Of a stretch of DNA of 64,000 bases, positions 41,003 to 48,133 are shown one piece after another (the stretch's first letter is position 1; each line of letters opens with the position of its first letter). The notes under the pieces are model-generated. The model ran no database searches. It was not told where the DNA came from and saw only the letters and a list, made by a program, of their open reading frames with translations. Source of the stretch: Devosia sp. (GTDB taxonomy: Bacteria > Pseudomonadota > Alphaproteobacteria > Rhizobiales > Devosiaceae); contig JADGNE010000006.1 of NCBI GenBank assembly GCA_015234425.1, positions 186,001 through 250,000 on the forward strand. Direction: 5' to 3'. Both the position numbers and the translations under genes were made by a program.

Positions 41003-42390
41003 ATGACGGACACGGCGCCGAACAGTCAACATTCGACAAGGCTGGTTGTTTCCTACGAATATGCTTCCCTGATCCTGGTGGTGCTCGGGCTCGGCTGGGC
41101 CGGCTTCTTCGCCTCTATTGGCTGGTGGCGCGTGGTTGGCCTGGACCTACTGCTCATCGTCGTTGGAGTTGCAAGCTATCTGCTCATTCGCAGGGGCCAA
41201 CTCACTATTGGCCTCCTCCTGTCTCAAACCGCCCTGTTCCTGCTCGTCGGCGCGATCTGCCTGATGTTCGACGTGCCGAGCGCCGATGCGCCCCGCGTCT
41301 CACATCTCTATTTGCTGGTCATTGCGGCGTTGGGTTACCTCAATTACCGGCGGCAGCCATCGGGTGTGCAGATCGGTCTTGTCGTCATTTGCCTCGCCAG
41401 CTTCGTGGCATTGGCCAGTTCCACCCTGTCCACGCCGCTGGCCATGCCAGTTCCGGATTCCGTTCGAATTGCAGGCAGCTGGGTGAACACCATAGTCGCC
41501 GTCGGCATGCTCTGTGGTTGCGCCTATGCCATGCAGGCCGAATTCACCAGCCGGGGTGCATTGAGCCGAGACCTGATGGCGGCACTCTGGAACGAGGAAT
41601 TCATCTCGTCTACCAGCCTCAGGTCGATCGAGAGCGCTCCACTATCGGCGCGGAAGCTCTCTTGCGCTGGACCAGCCCCCAGCGCGGGGCGCTTCCCCCG
41701 GCAGAGTTTATTCCCGAAGCCGAGCGCAGCGGCCTGATGGTCCGCATCGGCGGCTGGGTGTTGGAAGAAGGCTGCCGAACTCTGGCCGAATGGAACAATC
41801 ACCCCGAGTTCCAACACCTGACACTTTCGGTCAACGTCAGCGTCCGGCAGCTGCTGAACAAGGATTTCGAGCCGCTCGTTCGCAAGGTGCTGGCATCCAC
41901 CGGCGCCGACCCGCGAAAGCTCACACTGGAGCTGACCGAGAGCGTGCTGGTCACCGAGATGGACGTGGTCGTCGGCAAGCTCAAGGCGCTACACGAGCTG
42001 GGCATCACTATTGCGCTGGACGATTTCGGAACGGGCTATTCTTCGCTGTCCTATCTGCGGCGCCTGCCTGTGCAGCAGCTCAAGATCGATCGCGGATTTG
42101 TTCAGTACGCCGTCAAGTCTGCCCGCAGCGCATCACTGGCCGAAAACGTCATCCGACTCGGTCACGACCTTGGCCAGCATGTCCTCGCCGAAGGCGTCGA
42201 AACCGAGCAGCAGCATGATTTCCTCGCCCGTGCCGGTTGCGTGCAGTTCCAGGGCTATCTCTACGGCAGGCCGATGCAACTGACCGACTTCGAGCGCCGC
42301 ATCGGGCTTGAAGCCAGATCCCCGACCGACCAGACCAACCCGGGATGCGCACGGCAGGTTAGCCTCGTGCAACCCCGTCATAGACGATGA
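41003..42390 (+). pseudogene. Membrane-anchored EAL-domain (c-di-GMP phosphodiesterase) gene with a single-base frameshift
   Basis: The N-terminal frame (41003 to 41602) gives about 200 residues with five or six membrane segments and ends DLMAALWNEEF. The frame then shifts by one base at 41600-41604, after which HLVYQPQVD, GAEALLRW, FIPEAERSGL, ELTESVLVTEM, LDDFGTGYSSLSYL, LKIDRGFV and AEGVET complete an EAL domain. GAATTC|CATCTC would restore the frame by one C. Motifs for catalysis look intact (EALLRW, DDFGTG, KIDR). No GGDEF domain lies between the parts. As sequenced it is broken; a sequencing error is possible. The end overlaps the converging ATPase gene by 32 bp. Confidence 0.8.
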
Positions 42391-43150
42391 CCGGCGCCCC
42401 CGTCTGCGGATCCTCGATCCGCCGTGCGGTAACCCCATAGACCCTATCAAGCAGTTCGGCCGTAAGCACGGCATCAGGCGTCCCTTCGGCGACCACCTTG
42501 CCCGATTGCATCACCGCTAGCCGGTCGCAATAGCGCATCGCAAGGTTGAGATCATGAAGGGCAATAAGGACTGTGGCCCCGGCGTTCGCCGAGCGCTTCA
42601 GCAGATCCAACACCTCGATCTGCGCGTGAATGTCGAGATGGCTGGTCGGTTCATCAAGAACCAGAAGCTGCGGCTGCTGGGCAAGCGCCCGCGCGAGGTG
42701 CACCCTCTGCCGCTCTCCGCCGGAAAGACTGGTGTAGAGCCGCTGAGCGAGGGCACCCAGTCCGACATCATCTAGTGCCTGAGCGACGATAGCCGCGTCG
42801 GTGGCCTGCGCGCCCACGTCCTGCCACACACTCTGGAAGGGCATCCGCCCGAGCCCGACCACATCCGCAACGGTCAGGCGGTCCTCGGTATTGGCCGCTT
42901 GCTCCACATAGGCCGCGATCTGCGCGCGTTGGCGCCGTGGCATGGCGAGCAGGTCTGAGCCGCAGAAACGTACCGCCCCGCTGGCAGTTGGCCGAAGGCC
43001 CAGGGCCCCTGACAACAAGGTAGACTTTCCAGCGCCATTTGGCCCCACCAGCCCGGTAATTTCCCCGGCATGAGCCGACAGACCGGCACCGGCCACAATG
43101 GCCAGCCCACCAGCCACCATGGTCAGGTTGGACACCACAAGACCGCTCAT
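42359..43150 (-). CDS. ABC transporter ATP-binding protein of the proposed F420-0 importer (FecE/BtuD type)
   Basis: 263 residues. Walker A GPNGAGKST, Q-loop YVEQAANTEDRLTV, signature LSGGERQRVHLA, Walker B LLVLDEPTSHLD and switch His in ALHDLNLAMRY. It belongs to the type II (iron/cobalamin) importer ATPase class, and the F420-0 importer ATPase subclass (TIGR03873) is a member of it. Its start overlaps the permease stop by ATGA. It is the last gene of the minus-strand operon and converges on the EAL gene, overlapping it by 32 bp. Confidence 0.85.
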   Translation of the reverse strand: MSGLVVSNLTMVAGGLAIVAGAGLSAHAGEITGLVGPNGAGKSTLLSGALGLRPTASGAVRFCGSDLLAMPRRQRAQIAAYVEQAANTEDRLTVADVVGLGRMPFQSVWQDVGAQATDAAIVAQALDDVGLGALAQRLYTSLSGGERQRVHLARALAQQPQLLVLDEPTSHLDIHAQIEVLDLLKRSANAGATVLIALHDLNLAMRYCDRLAVMQSGKVVAEGTPDAVLTAELLDRVYGVTARRIEDPQTGAPVIVYDGVARG

Positions 43151-44163
43151 GTGACGCGCCTGTAGCGCATGAGGACGAAGAAGAATGCCGGTGCGCCAAT
43201 GAGCGCCGTGACAATGCCAACAGGCAATTCACGGGGGTCGAACAGCGTCCGTGCCGCCGTATCAGCCCAAAGCATGACGAGGGCCCCGACCACCATGGAC
43301 CATGGCAAAAGCCTCCGGTGTCGCGCGCCAGTGACCAGCCGCACCGCGTGTGGCACCACGAGGCCCACGAAACCGATGGCGCCGCCGATGGCCACCATGA
43401 TGCCAGTCAGGATAGCCGTGGCGATGAGCAGCATCCAGCGCAGCCGGTTGACGTCAATGCCGAGGCTTGCCGCCGAGACGTTGCCGAACACAAAGCCATC
43501 GAGCGCCCGTGCTGACAAGAGGATGACCGGCGCACAGAGCAGCAACCCCGCGCACACCAGCCCCACATCGCTCCAGAGCGACCCGCTGAGCGAGCCCATG
43601 AGCCAGGACAGGATTTCCCGATAACTATCGCCGGTGGCTGACCAGAATATAAGGAAGGATGTCGCCGCCGAAGCCAGCGCCGATATGCAGATGCCGGCCA
43701 GAATAGCGCGCGATGGTGTGGCTCCGCCGAGGAGATGTGCGATGCCCAGTGCCATTCCCAAAGCAGCGAGCGCCCCCAAGAATGCGCCGATCGGCATGAG
43801 CAGCGCCGCGCCCGTCAGCAATACTGTCACCGCGCCGAGGGCCGCACCAGAGGACAGCCCAAGCAGATAGGGGTCAGCCAAGGGATTGCGCGTCAGCGCC
43901 TGCATGACCGCGCCTGCCAGCGCCAGACCCGCGCCGATGCCGCAGGCGACAAGCACACGGGGCAGCCGCAACTCCCAGACGATCGCGTCGCGCAAACGAC
44001 TGACCGGGCTTTCGGGCAGGATGCCGAGATGATGCAGCACGATCGTCCACACCTCACCCGGCGAAATCTCGGCCGGACCAAGCGTCACCGCGATCAGGGC
44101 GCTGCAGACAAGGAGGACGCAGAGAGCGAAAAACGCCGACAGTCGCAAAGGCGTCGCCATCAT
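43147..44163 (-). CDS. FecCD-family permease of the proposed F420-0 importer
   Basis: 338 residues with about ten membrane segments. FecCD hallmarks are LRLPRVLVACGIGAGLALAGAVMQALTRNPLADPYLLGLSSGAALG and the C-terminal AIGFVGLVVPHAVRL; RNPLADP is the family's coupling motif. Such permeases pass cobalamin, heme, siderophores and, in the TIGR03869 group, proposedly F420-0. A single permease gene is present, so it should act as a homodimer. It lies 40 bp after the binding protein and overlaps the ATPase by ATGA. Confidence 0.87.
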   Translation of the reverse strand: MMATPLRLSAFFALCVLLVCSALIAVTLGPAEISPGEVWTIVLHHLGILPESPVSRLRDAIVWELRLPRVLVACGIGAGLALAGAVMQALTRNPLADPYLLGLSSGAALGAVTVLLTGAALLMPIGAFLGALAALGMALGIAHLLGGATPSRAILAGICISALASAATSFLIFWSATGDSYREILSWLMGSLSGSLWSDVGLVCAGLLLCAPVILLSARALDGFVFGNVSAASLGIDVNRLRWMLLIATAILTGIMVAIGGAIGFVGLVVPHAVRLVTGARHRRLLPWSMVVGALVMLWADTAARTLFDPRELPVGIVTALIGAPAFFFVLMRYRRVT

Positions 44164-44203
44164 TACCGGGATCGATCAGTGCGGAGATAAAAAGACCCTG
44201 GTG

Positions 44204-45136
44204 TCACCGCGAAAAATCCAGCGCGCGCAGCTGGGCCGCCATATCGACGACCGCGGGCACATTGCGCACGCCCGCCTCCCCCGCAGGGAATGGAACGACG
44301 AGATAACGCTGATGGATCACCGCATCAAGTTCTCGCGTGATCGGGTTTTCGGCGAGGAGTTTGCGTTTTTGCTCGGCAGAATTCCACGCAGCGTCGACGA
44401 GGACGATCACATCGGGATTGGCATCCACGATGGCTTCCCAGCTTGCTGATACCCAGCCGTCGTCCACTTCAGCGAAAATATTGGTGAGCCCAAGGGCGTC
44501 CATGATCATGGCCGGCGCATTATTCCCCGCGCCGACATAGGGGGTCTTGGTGCCGGAAGAATACCAAAGCGCGCTCAACCCACGATCATCGGCGGGTGTA
44601 CTGGCCAGCATGGCCTTTTGGCTCTCCACTAGCGCCGTGGCCGCGTCTGAAACGTCGAAAATCTCGCCCATCTCGGCAATTTCGCCGAACAGCACGTTGA
44701 AGTCGAGCCTGGGTGGTCGGACCGTGCGACAAGCTGCCGGCGCGACGTAGGTGTCGACGCCCAGCTGTGCGAGCGTCGCGCGCTCACCGGCGCCGTCGGC
44801 GGCAAAATTACTCTCCCAGCCGCCGTAGATCAGATCTGGTTCGGCTTCGAGCACAACTTCCTGCGATGGCAGTTTTTCCGAGAGCACAGGGAGATTGGTA
44901 CCGGAAAATTCTGCGGGCAGCGAGCCATCCAGAAACCCCACTCCGACGATGCGATCACCCACTCCCAGCGCCAGTAGCAGCTCGGTCGCGGTTGACTTGA
45001 TGGTAACAACGCGCTGCGGGGGAGCCTCGAACTGAACCATCACGCCGCAATTGTCGATCACCAGCGGGTCGTCTGTCGCCGCGACAGCGGGGCAGCTCAA
45101 TGCAAGAGCCGCCAGAATGGCGAATTGGACACGCAT
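44204..45136 (-). CDS. Periplasmic binding protein of the proposed F420-0 importer
   Basis: 310 residues with a signal peptide (MRVQFAILAALALSCPAVAA). The mature part is a class III (helical backbone) binding protein: IDNCGVMVQFEAPPQRVVTIKSTATELLLALGVGDRIVGVGFLDG, then ALWYSSGTKTPYVGAGNNAPAMIMDALG and DANPDVIVLVDAAW. The Cys in NCG and this N-terminal pattern are, as I recall, those of the proposed F420-0 binding protein (TIGR03868). I chose 45136 because it gives the signal peptide; the longer frame is a shadow of cofE. It lies 4 bp after cofE. Binding of F420-0 is a genomic-context proposal, not a measured fact. Confidence 0.83.
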   Translation of the reverse strand: MRVQFAILAALALSCPAVAATDDPLVIDNCGVMVQFEAPPQRVVTIKSTATELLLALGVGDRIVGVGFLDGSLPAEFSGTNLPVLSEKLPSQEVVLEAEPDLIYGGWESNFAADGAGERATLAQLGVDTYVAPAACRTVRPPRLDFNVLFGEIAEMGEIFDVSDAATALVESQKAMLASTPADDRGLSALWYSSGTKTPYVGAGNNAPAMIMDALGLTNIFAEVDDGWVSASWEAIVDANPDVIVLVDAAWNSAEQKRKLLAENPITRELDAVIHQRYLVVPFPAGEAGVRNVPAVVDMAAQLRALDFSR

Positions 45137-45140
45137 GACC

Positions 45141-45971
45141 TCAGTCCTGCCGCTGCTTGGTCGACGCGGCGATGCGCCCTTCGCCCAGTTCAGCCATCGC
45201 CGCTTCATAGCCCAGCCGATACGCCTCTGCTGAACCGAAGCGGAACATGTCGTCATCGCCGACGCGCGCCAATGTGCGGGCTCCGGAGCCATCGAGATCG
45301 CGCACCAGCCGCCCGAGCCCACGCACCACGGCCACCGGAATCCCGCTCGTCTTGCCCTTGACGAGATCGGCGGCACCCGCAATCTCGTCCGCCACGACCG
45401 CGACCGTGACATGCAGAGGCCGGCCATTGGCATCATTGGCGCCACGCAGATCGTCGGTCAATTGCAGCCCAGCGGCGCCAATAGCCTGGTCGGTCTGGCC
45501 AACGCGCCAGGCGCGCCCGATCGTGTCGGTGATGATCACGCCGATATCGACACCCAGCCGCTGCCGCAGCCCGGCACAGAGTGCCCGCGCGGAGCGGTCC
45601 GGATCCTCGGGGAGACGCAGCGCGACACCTTCAGGAACATTGGACATATCGATCCCGGCGGCCGCCATGATAAGGCCCTGCCGCGTCTCGACGATCTTCA
45701 TCACCCCGCCCGGATGGACGCGCTCCGCCACGATGCGCACCGTATCGTCGGCAATTGCCTTCTCGCGCTCGCTGGCCGGCACCTGCATGCCCTCGGACTT
45801 GGAGACGATCTTGCTCGTGACGACCAGTATGTCGCCGTCGCGCAGGGCCGCGTCAGGGTCGTTGTGGGCCGCCGCGTCAACTGCTTCGCCGATCCGCACG
45901 ACGAGGTCGTCCCCGGCCACGATTTCGGGAATGCCTTCTAGGCCCCAGACAGTCAATCGAGGCGTCATCAT
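45141..45971 (-). CDS. cofE: Coenzyme F420-0:L-glutamate ligase
   Basis: 276 residues. CofE adds glutamate residues to F420-0 with GTP, Mn/Mg and K+, making the F420-n tail. Family motifs are present: [17 protein letters not shown] (52-61 region), DMSNVPEG (109-115), [16 protein letters not shown] (147-161) with the metal-binding Asp149, and the late [15 protein letters not shown]. The length is that of stand-alone CofE, without the C-terminal nitroreductase domain of mycobacterial FbiB. Its start overlaps the fgd stop by ATGA, and the binding protein follows 4 bp later. CofC, CofD and FbiC are not in the window. Confidence 0.92.
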
Positions 45972-46972
45972 GCCCCCGTGAGTTTCCGGAGTCTGGGGAG
46001 AATATCCTCTGCGTAGAGCGAGAGGAACCGGCTTTGATCCGGGCCCGGCGCATGAAAGACAAGATGGTCAAAGCCGTAGTCGATATAGGTCTTGATATCG
46101 GCGACATGCTCATCGGGATCGCTCGACACGATCCAGCGCTTGGCCACCCGCTCGATCGGCAAAGCCTCGGCCAGCCGCTCCATTTCCTCCGGGTCCTGCA
46201 CGGAATGCTTTTCCTCCGCCGAGAGCGAGAGTGCAGCCCAGTGGCGCGTGTCATTGAGCGCGCGGTCGGCATCGGGGTCGAAGGACACTTTCACCTCGAT
46301 CATCCGTTCGAATGGCTTGCTCTCCCGTCCGGATTCGCTGCGGCCGGTGGCAACATTCGGTAGCAATTGATCGACGTAGAGCTCGGCGCCCTTGCCGGAA
46401 GTGCAGATGAACCCATCCCCTTCCCGCCCCGCGTACTTCGCGTTGAGCGGCCCGCCGGCGGCGATATAGATCGGCACGGGCGCATGGGGCTTGTCATAGA
46501 TCGTGGCATTGACGGTCTTGTAATATTGACCCTCGAAGCTGACACGGTCCTCGGTCCACAGCTGGCGAATGAGTTTGACGGCCTCGCGCAGGCGCGCCGA
46601 ACGCTCCTTGAGTTCGGGCCATTCCATGCCGGTTGCCGGCACCTCATTGAGAGACTCGCCCGTCCCGACGCCCAAAATGACGCGGCCGGGGAACATGGCG
46701 CCCAGCGTGCCGAAAGCGTGTGCGACCACGGAAGGATGCAAGCGGAACGTGGGCGTCAGCACCGATGCACCCAGCACGATCCGCTCCGTCCGCGCCAGCA
46801 CGGCTGCCATCCAGGCAGGGGCGAAGGGGGCGTGGCCGTCAGTGTGTTTCCAGGGTTGGAAATGGTCCGACACGAAGACCGAGTCAAAACCCGCCTCTTC
46901 TGCCTCCACGGCAAACTGCATCAGCTTGCCCGGGGCGAATTGCTCGGCCGAAGCCTTGTACCCGAAGCGCAT
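45968..46972 (-). CDS. fgd: F420-dependent glucose-6-phosphate dehydrogenase
   Basis: 334 residues, very similar over its length to mycobacterial FGD1 ([37 protein letters not shown]). Residues known to be important in FGD1 are all conserved: His37 and Trp41 (His40, Trp44), Glu106 (Glu109), and the phosphate-binding Lys194, Lys255 and Arg279 (Lys198, Lys259, Arg283). This supports oxidation of glucose-6-phosphate with reduction of F420, not merely an LLM-class assignment. It heads the compact operon with cofE and the importer and is the natural source of reduced F420. A family A repeat lies directly upstream. Confidence 0.9.
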
Positions 46973-47002
46973 TTTCTAAGGTCTCCTCCGAAGCCGGTGG
47001 GA

Positions 47003-47115
47003 TCCACCCCCACCTAACCTCCCCCTATCGAGGGGGAGGGACACATCCAGTTTGCCGCGGCCATCGTGAGCCATCGGCAGATCCTTTCCCCTCCCGGCAG
47101 GAGGCTAGGTAGGGA
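47003..47115. repeat. Family A intergenic element, copy 4
   Basis: It begins CCACCCCCACCTAACCTCCCC and ends GGAGGCTAGGTAGGGAT, with internal GAGGGGGAGGG and CATCCAGTTTGCCGCG resembling copy 1. It is the only thing visible in the 159-bp gap between fgd and the upstream LLM gene, so I see no separate promoter for fgd. Confidence 0.7.
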
Positions 47116-47131
47116 TCAGATCGCGCTGCCC

Positions 47132-48133
47132 CTAGCGGAACGCCGGGATCACGTACCGTCCGTAGTTGGCGATGATTTCCTCCTCGTCGCCACTATCGAG
47201 ATAGATGTTGAACTGGGTCACCCCTGCCGCCTCGAGCTCGCGCACCTTGGAGACATGCTCCTCCGGCTCGCCCAGCACACAGAAGCTTTCCACCACGTCG
47301 TCAGTGATGAAATCGAGATAGGGATTATCGGCCTGGCCGTGCTTGGAATAGTCGTATCCGCGCCGCTTTTCGATGTAGCTGGTGAGGCTCGCCGGCACCT
47401 TATCGCTGTCCGAACCGTATTTTTCGACGATATCGGCGACGTGATTGCCCACCATGGCCGGGAACCATTTCACCTTCTCGATGGCCCGCTTCTTGTCGCC
47501 AAAATAGGCCGGCGCAGCGGCCATGGAGCGGAAGCCCGACATGTCCTTGCCTGCGGCCTTGCCGGCATCGACGCACTGGTCAGTGAACCATTTGCAAAGC
47601 CCGGGATCGGCAATCTGCAACACCACGCCATCGGCATGCTCGCCCGCCGTCTTCAGCGCCAGCGGGCCATAGGCGGCGATCCAGCTTGGCATTTCGTGTC
47701 CGACAGCCCAGGGGAATTTCACCGCAGCCGGGATTTCGCCGTAGCTGACTTCCTCGCCTCGGACCATGGCCTTGGTCTTGTCGATGAAATCGGCCACCCG
47801 GGCCAGCGTCGCCGGCTTCTTGCCCATGACGCGCATCGAGCTGTCGCCACGGCCCACCGCGAGATCAAATCGCCCACCGCTCTGCTTGGAGAGCGACCCA
47901 AAGATCGAAGCGGCAACCGACCAGTCGCGCACGTCCGGGTTGGTCACCAGCGGGCCGAAACGCATGTCGGTCGTATGTTCCATGCACATGGCAATCGCCG
48001 CATAGCAATCGCGCCACAAGATATGGCTGTCATAGAACCAGCAATAGGAAAAGCCGGCGTATTCGGCCGCGCGGACCAGATAACGGGCGCGATCTGCCTC
48101 GATGAACCCTTTGAAGGTGATGCCGAATTCCAT
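47132..48133 (-). CDS. LLM-class F420-dependent oxidoreductase (TIGR03842 type)
   Basis: 333 residues of bacterial-luciferase-like TIM barrel. It starts MEFGITFKGFIEADRARYL, and continues with FYDSHILWRD, RFGPLVTNPDVRDWSVAAS, GRFDLAVGRGDSSMRVMG and PSWIAAYGPLALKTAGEHADGVVLQ. This matches the group annotated as TIGR03842 F420-dependent oxidoreductases, whose substrate is unknown. The start at 48133 matches the family; the longer frame has no support. It is upstream of and on the same strand as fgd-cofE-importer, so it may head the whole F420 transcript and be a user of reduced F420. Confidence 0.85.
   Translation of the reverse strand: MEFGITFKGFIEADRARYLVRAAEYAGFSYCWFYDSHILWRDCYAAIAMCMEHTTDMRFGPLVTNPDVRDWSVAASIFGSLSKQSGGRFDLAVGRGDSSMRVMGKKPATLARVADFIDKTKAMVRGEEVSYGEIPAAVKFPWAVGHEMPSWIAAYGPLALKTAGEHADGVVLQIADPGLCKWFTDQCVDAGKAAGKDMSGFRSMAAAPAYFGDKKRAIEKVKWFPAMVGNHVADIVEKYGSDSDKVPASLTSYIEKRRGYDYSKHGQADNPYLDFITDDVVESFCVLGEPEEHVSKVRELEAAGVTQFNIYLDSGDEEEIIANYGRYVIPAFR

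Follow-up and report, generated by a model that had tools for sequence, protein, structure and literature searches.

An F420-related gene module in Devosia

We analyzed a 64,000-nucleotide stretch of a Devosia sp. genome (GCA_015234425.1, contig JADGNE010000006.1, positions 186,001 to 250,000; hereafter the window) that harbors a minus-strand gene cluster predicted to import a deazaflavin, most likely F420-0, and to convert it into usable cofactor F420. Family calls on the window proteins, made with curated NCBIfam cut-offs, delimit the following features.

42359..43150, minus strand: ATP-binding cassette (ABC) ATPase of the putative importer; nearest family TIGR03873, 299.0 bits, below the cut-off of 372.4
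43147..44163, minus strand: FecCD-type permease of the putative importer; TIGR03869, 445.3 bits (cut-off 437.35)
44204..45136, minus strand: periplasmic binding protein; TIGR03868, 408.4 bits (cut-off 392.4)
45141..45971, minus strand: cofE, F420-0:L-glutamate ligase, 276 amino acids; TIGR01916, 214.1 bits (cut-off 180.65)
45968..46972, minus strand: fgd; TIGR03554, 507.8 bits (equivalog cut-off 420)
46973..47131, no strand: intergenic region separating fgd from the TIGR03842 gene
47132..48133, minus strand: TIGR03842 oxidoreductase of the luciferase-like monooxygenase (LLM) class, a candidate F420H2 consumer and the sixth gene of the module; 487 bits (cut-off 295.45)

A preliminary description of this DNA had reported five minus-strand genes joined by two ATGA overlaps and a 4-bp gap. 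Coordinates and junctions agree with that account: the overlaps fall at 45968-45971 (fgd/cofE) and 43147-43150 (permease/ATPase), and 4 bp separate cofE from the binding-protein gene, while a 40-bp gap between the binding-protein and permease genes had gone unmentioned. The five genes are all present, but the set is extended by the TIGR03842 gene, which that description had missed. Its identification of fgd and cofE was borne out by the family scores, and the importer families that it named were confirmed for the binding protein and the permease but not for the ATPase, the only one of the five whose score falls short of the cut-off. In two relatives of the locus, the ATPase pieces tested also fall under the TIGR03873 cut-off (at about 302 bits), and the permease of one of them (L041) lies narrowly under that of TIGR03869 (436.7 against 437.35 bits).

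The CofE of the window has no second Pfam domain and scores 288.3 bits against PRK13294 (NF009810), under the cut-off of 304; its AGID and ITDT motifs, which we take to contain metal-binding residues, align with those of the solved CofE structures 2phn/7uld. The Devosia Fgd is a full-length homolog of Mycobacterium tuberculosis Fgd1 (3b4y, 465 bits) and of the F420-dependent dehydrogenase 5lxe (478 bits); mycobacteria make F420 themselves. The nearest solved relatives of the TIGR03842 protein are F420-dependent methylenetetrahydromethanopterin reductases.

The N-terminus of the binding protein resembles, by eye, a signal peptide. Its AlphaFold model (pLDDT 82.3, pTM 0.82) has as its best Protein Data Bank match 4mlz (49% identity, TM score 0.87; 293.6 bits by sequence), an actinobacterial protein from Jonesia denitrificans with no ligand in the titles seen. 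Across 121 binding-protein homologs (45 alphaproteobacterial and 76 actinobacterial), fifteen residues are invariant (C30, K47, S48, E93, W107, E108, S109, R119, C136, W191, W228, W233, E234, W251 and K257), and E287 and R291 are each found in 120 of the 121. The aromatic and basic pocket that these invariant residues may line would suit a deazaflavin. Arg137 is present in all 45 alphaproteobacterial proteins versus 1 of the 76 others.

Conservation of the module in Alphaproteobacteria

Matches to TIGR03868 at E ≤ 0.001 occur in 185 of 297 genomes sampled from the order but pass the cut-off in only 8, and the E-value alone therefore says little for the binding protein. The importer genomes of the order sample were defined as these 8 plus one just below the cut-off (G154, 387.5 bits); the next match, at 258 bits, was excluded with all lower ones. 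The nine comprise all 7 sampled genomes of the same genus, that of the window included, a member of a different genus in the same family and a member of a different family. A scan of named genomes supplied the best 80 of 163 relatives (43 alphaproteobacterial and 37 actinobacterial); together with the window and an additional Devosia locus, the 43 make up the 45 alphaproteobacterial loci compared.

At 42 of these 45 loci the module is intact or lacks fgd alone. The order fgd-cofE-binding protein-permease-ATPase-TIGR03842 is found at 29 loci and the order TIGR03842-fgd-cofE-binding protein-permease-ATPase at nine, the window among them, while four Pelagibacterium-type loci (L088, L090, L092 and L118) lack only fgd. 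In the genome of L092, fgd is located on a separate contig and clusters with the fgd of F420-making Alphaproteobacteria (SH-like approximate likelihood ratio test, SH-aLRT, 91). The other three loci lie on truncated contigs (5.4 to 6.5 kb), and CofE is present at all 45. The conservation of gene order across dozens of genomes excludes chance association. The locus is not an isolated case; rare transfer into a single strain was rejected, given the presence of the module in every sampled genome of the genus and in many named relatives. A pattern scan of viral contigs returned no relative of the binding protein, matches to the binding protein and CofE in plasmid records were all below 60% identity, and no F420 gene was listed in the two actinobacterial plasmid-match neighborhoods examined.

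Absence of F420 biosynthesis genes from importer-bearing Alphaproteobacteria

The genome containing the window is a 74-contig draft of 3.98 Mb with completeness given as 100%. The absence of biosynthesis genes that the preliminary description had remarked upon in the window extends to this whole genome, which yielded no match to CofD, to CofH/FbiC or, at E ≤ 0.001, to CofC, and hence none of the three enzymes that together define a de novo F420 maker. De novo F420 synthesis in Devosia was rejected on these absences and on those in the related genomes described next. Within the order sample, 33 of the 297 genomes have a CofD (TIGR01819) match, 29 of these over cut-off, and the nine importer genomes have none. 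CofH (TIGR03551), searched in 14 genomes of the sample, is likewise missing from all nine, and one genome without the importer has a 28-bit match. Among the 80 named loci, 50 genomes (21 alphaproteobacterial and 29 actinobacterial) were searched for CofD, CofH and CofC. None of the 21 alphaproteobacterial importer genomes has a match to CofD or CofH; as four genomes are common to the nine and the 21, both enzymes are missing from 26 distinct Devosia-type genomes. CofC over cut-off is absent from all 22 Devosia-type genomes searched (the 21 and that of the window), with weak matches of at most 30 bits in eight of the 21 and none in the genome of the window.

The genes for cofactor use follow the importer. 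Fgd (E ≤ 1e-60) occurs in 13 of the 297 genomes, namely all nine importer genomes and four CofD genomes, and TIGR03842, at the same threshold, in 24: the nine importer genomes, 14 CofD genomes and G103, a draft in which a 5.1-kb contig carries cofE adjoining TIGR03842 and then ends. CofD genomes number 30 in these counts (over cut-off or 0.6 bit under), and the corresponding Fisher values ignore kinship. In several CofD genomes of the order, the TIGR03842 gene lies 2-3 kb from CofD.

The proposed importer and FO synthesis in Actinobacteria

TIGR03868, TIGR03869 and TIGR03873, all hypoth_equivalog models, presumably go back to the proposal of an importer in several (five) Actinobacteria lacking the rest of the F420 pathway, where it sits beside cofE. 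The actinobacterial cassette shares with the Devosia locus its three components, the adjoining cofE and a genome without a match to FO synthase; the Devosia module differs in its alphaproteobacterial host, its tight operon with fgd, its TIGR03842 gene, its ATPase score under cut-off and the absence of CofC and CofD. All 29 importer genomes searched from the 37 named actinobacterial loci have CofD; they are those closest to Devosia, as only the best 80 of 163 relatives were retained in the scan. CofC is over cut-off in 28 of them and split into two fragments on two contigs in the 29th, and CofH yielded nothing in the 29 but two matches of 19 and 28 bits. In many actinobacterial loci cofD directly follows the ATPase gene.

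A wider sample comprised 198 genomes of the Actinomycetales, the order of a Cellulomonas among the 29. Of these, 48 carry the importer over cut-off. CofD has a match in 87, of which 85 pass the cut-off, and CofH in 49, with 27 passing the cut-off and 22 scoring 190-345 bits. The importer count leaves out five TIGR03868 matches at 208-294 bits, of which four lie in CofH genomes; the CofH count leaves out 16 genomes with matches below 35 bits, including four importer genomes at 19-22 bits. CofD is retained by 28 of the 48 importer genomes and missing from 20, so the premise of the preliminary description, an actinobacterial importer in genomes without the remaining F420 pathway, applies to the latter and not to the former. 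A substantial CofH match is present in only one of the 48 (G543, 289 bits), and 27 of the 28 that have CofD lack one. Among the 87 CofD genomes, CofH (at least 190 bits) accompanies 1 of 28 with the importer versus 46 of 59 without it (Fisher p ~1e-11, kinship ignored). Contrary to a strict rule, two genomes of the sample have CofH without CofD.

The plain reading of this anti-correlation, which provides independent support for the importer family and predicts two levels of salvage, is that the importer stands in for FO synthesis. Judging from gene content, FO is the likelier cargo where CofC and CofD are kept, as in Actinobacteria, and F420-0 the likely one where they are gone, as in Devosia, where CofE is the sole biosynthetic enzyme found; the importer family as a whole probably handles both.

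Origin of the module

The preliminary description had entertained an actinobacterial connection for these genes, and phylogenetic inference bears this out for cofE and the importer but not for the TIGR03842 gene, while the fgd tree gives no origin. Among the 96 CofE sequences of a quick tree, the 16 Devosia-type rows form one clade (SH-aLRT 100), and a further branch (SH-aLRT 100) parts Devosia-type and actinobacterial rows from the CofE of 19 alphaproteobacterial biosynthetic stretches. Among the latter, clusters such as L192, L193 and L204 have cofE in the vicinity of a TIGR03842 gene that shares 66-70% identity with the one in the window, but they also encode CofH and CofD, and npdG in L193, and the importer was not found in these stretches. 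The TIGR03842 protein of the window joins alphaproteobacterial sequences (SH-aLRT 100). The actinobacterial rows of the Fgd and TIGR03842 trees are distant, consisting of other LLM enzymes at 34-37% identity and of family members at 40-44% identity, respectively, and these trees were used only for the alphaproteobacterial versus actinobacterial split of TIGR03842. By sequence affinity, then, CofE and the importer are actinobacterial and the oxidoreductase is alphaproteobacterial, which makes the module a mosaic.

In a careful tree of the three importer genes (59 rows, root not inferred), the ten alphaproteobacterial rows form one clade (100/100). The label of CofD-lacking Actinobacteria requires seven changes on this tree, at least five of them forced by well-supported branches, with Devosia additional; repeated gain or loss of CofD has thus taken place around a single type of importer.

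A proposed salvage-and-use module and its alternatives

Together, these results suggest that Devosia harbors a complete module for the salvage and use of F420 while being unable to make the cofactor, a reading to which we assign a probability of roughly 0.7. Transport, its exact substrate and the use of F420H2 by the TIGR03842 enzyme are the steps that we infer; the reactions of CofE and Fgd are established for their families. A class III periplasmic binding protein would capture a tail-less deazaflavin, most likely F420-0, shed by F420-making neighbors, and a BtuCD-like permease/ATPase pair would take it into the cell. CofE would then add the glutamate tail, which would also trap the cofactor inside; Fgd would reduce F420 with glucose-6-phosphate, and the TIGR03842 enzyme would spend the resulting F420H2.

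Several observations weigh against this interpretation. The ATPase, for which TIGR03873 is the best of 190 families, nevertheless falls well short of its cut-off. No residue cleanly splits the binding proteins of CofD-bearing and CofD-lacking genomes among the 121 homologs. In 13 CofD genomes of the Actinomycetales (11 of them passing the CofD cut-off), CofH is without a substantial match and no importer passes its cut-off; these genomes may rely on a different source of FO or a different transporter. The alphaproteobacterial clade of the three-gene tree is nested in a group of 20 (96/87) that otherwise consists of ten Actinobacteria with CofD, and a quick tree built from the binding protein only fails to place the Devosia clade. 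Finally, extracellular FO is stated in excerpts of PMC11917521, and no such statement was seen there or elsewhere in the literature consulted for extracellular F420-0.

Part of this evidence would favor FO as the cargo in Devosia, as it probably is in the actinobacterial relatives, with an unrecognized pair of enzymes replacing CofC and CofD ahead of CofE. In the three-gene tree the Devosia importer sits among those of Actinobacteria that have CofD, and none of the 20 CofD-lacking actinobacterial rows falls in the group of 20, 19 of them lying across a 99/92 branch; with nearest relatives that keep CofD, FO is a possible cargo on phylogenetic grounds. The candidate pocket residues are common to all binding-protein groups, and FO is described in the same excerpts as typical of the culture supernatants of F420 producers (PMC11917521). 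For the binding protein alone, a topology joining the Devosia clade to the main CofD-lacking clade has a higher likelihood and is not rejected (p 0.66), and placement was therefore taken from the three-gene tree. The lack of any CofD match in 26 Devosia-type genomes and of CofC over cut-off in 22 argues against FO import, and since 20 of the 48 importer-bearing Actinomycetales also lack CofD, the same unrecognized replacement would be needed repeatedly, which makes this explanation unlikely. Import of mature, tailed F420, with CofE merely re-lengthening tails, would employ an identical gene set, and a BtuF structure (5ysc) is among the structure matches of the binding protein, the BtuF-type fold accommodating ligands up to the size of B12. 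This scheme leaves unexplained both the presence of CofE at 45 of 45 loci and the position of cofD directly after the ATPase gene in many actinobacterial loci. Tailed F420 is, moreover, probably too big for general porins, and no outer-membrane receptor is present among the neighboring genes in the annotated part of the window; we consider this scheme improbable.

A transporter for heme, cobalamin or a siderophore, with the F420 genes as mere neighbors, would belong to the same superfamily, share the fold and operon layout of BtuCDF and related importers, and accord with the low ATPase score. The genome of the window does encode, on contig 31 (L048:3399-6167, minus strand), a second, paralogous importer of this superfamily, whose binding protein (174 bits) and permease (253 bits) have TIGR03868 and TIGR03869 as their nearest families but lie far under cut-off; weak TIGR03868-type matches of this sort are frequent across the order. 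The importer proteins of the module, on the other hand, score far higher as F420-0 families than as heme, B12 or siderophore importers (the permease, for example, reaches 445 bits with TIGR03869 and 237 with BtuC), and the better match to a heme or cobalamin importer that the preliminary description had named as counter-evidence was not found. An Rfam scan detected no family at threshold in the window, cobalamin riboswitches included, nor any riboswitch in eight related loci, and importer presence tracks the absence of FO synthase and the presence of Fgd and TIGR03842. Import of cobalamin, heme or siderophores, which we regard as very unlikely, was rejected on the family scores and the lack of a riboswitch. 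It is scarcely credible, lastly, that the genome makes F420 itself with genes lost in assembly gaps or too diverged to detect. The assembly is a draft, but one listed as 100% complete, and none of the 26 distinct Devosia-type importer genomes yields CofD or CofH. The same models do detect CofD in 33 of the 297 genomes sampled from the order and, among the 198 actinobacterial genomes, CofH over cut-off in 27, and tblastn detects CofH in 18 of 19 alphaproteobacterial CofD stretches.

The F420-0 importer has so far been a database proposal, formulated in three hypoth_equivalog models. Our literature search found no paper naming these models or an F420-0 ABC transporter, nor any using F420 uptake, transporter, importer, salvage or auxotroph as phrases; of nine papers mentioning both Devosia and F420, none was, judging from titles and the openings of abstracts, apparently concerned with F420 in Devosia. 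Excerpts of a 2021 review report trace F420 in Oligotropha and Paracoccus and mention a putative exporter in P. rhizoxinica, but no importer (PMC8498797). Being in culture and combining a six-gene module with a lack of biosynthesis genes, Devosia would offer a clean organism for uptake tests. If salvage is confirmed, F420 would be a shared, vitamin-like good among microbes, and surveys of F420 use based on biosynthesis genes would overlook such users.

Possible uses of the cofactor

The genomic context of TIGR03842 gives this oxidoreductase a testable role. Actinobacterial stretches (77, including one, L164, that is not an importer locus) were searched by tblastn with the genes of L111, where TIGR03842 forms a cluster with a dihydropyrimidinase (TIGR02033) and a carbon-nitrogen hydrolase (L111:306-6658). 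TIGR03842 is present in 31 of the 77 stretches and accompanied by both genes in all 31, with starts within 2.8 kb in 30 and a class III aminotransferase as well in five; a MocR-like regulator is often found in such stretches. Dihydropyrimidinase and the carbon-nitrogen hydrolase catalyze the later steps of reductive pyrimidine breakdown, and their adjacency makes TIGR03842 a candidate for the first, F420H2-dependent step. This context suggests F420-dependent pyrimidine reduction.

A close nucleoside hydrolase (over 450 bits) lies at 11 of the 45 Devosia-type loci and a Bmp-type binding protein at four, the query locus (L071) being counted in both; neither was matched within the 64-kb window. 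Dihydropyrimidinase has no match at threshold in the 45 stretches. In the roughly 1.13 Mb (about 28%) of the 3.98-Mb genome searched, PreA/PreT had no match and one distant dihydropyrimidinase-like gene (28.7% identity) was found. A broader scheme would treat F420 as a traded, vitamin-like compound, with one deazaflavin importer family serving two grades of dependence (keepers of CofC, CofD and CofE importing FO, and CofE-only cells such as Devosia importing F420-0) and with reductive pyrimidine catabolism as a main use, TIGR03842 and F420H2 replacing dihydropyrimidine dehydrogenase; we put this forward tentatively, as a possibility that is somewhat doubtful as a whole.

Additional observations

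The 13 Actinomycetales genomes with CofD but neither substantial CofH nor importer are G347, G350, G356, G363, G379, G412, G440, G468, G487, G496, G510, G517 and G524, the CofD match being under cut-off in G412 and G524. A second candidate F420 enzyme, an LLM oxidoreductase of the TIGR03557 family, adjoins cofE in L111 (13601-14620, minus strand). Similar genes, with 35-37% identity to Fgd, occur in L095, L107 and L144, TIGR03557 having been tested in L111 only. Downstream of the module, the window encodes on the plus strand a membrane-protein-like piece with no Pfam match (41003-41737) and, in a different frame, an EAL domain lacking the first 61 model positions (41737-42390), which overlaps the 3' end of the ATPase gene; the region 41003-42390 has the appearance of a disrupted gene or of an error in the sequence.

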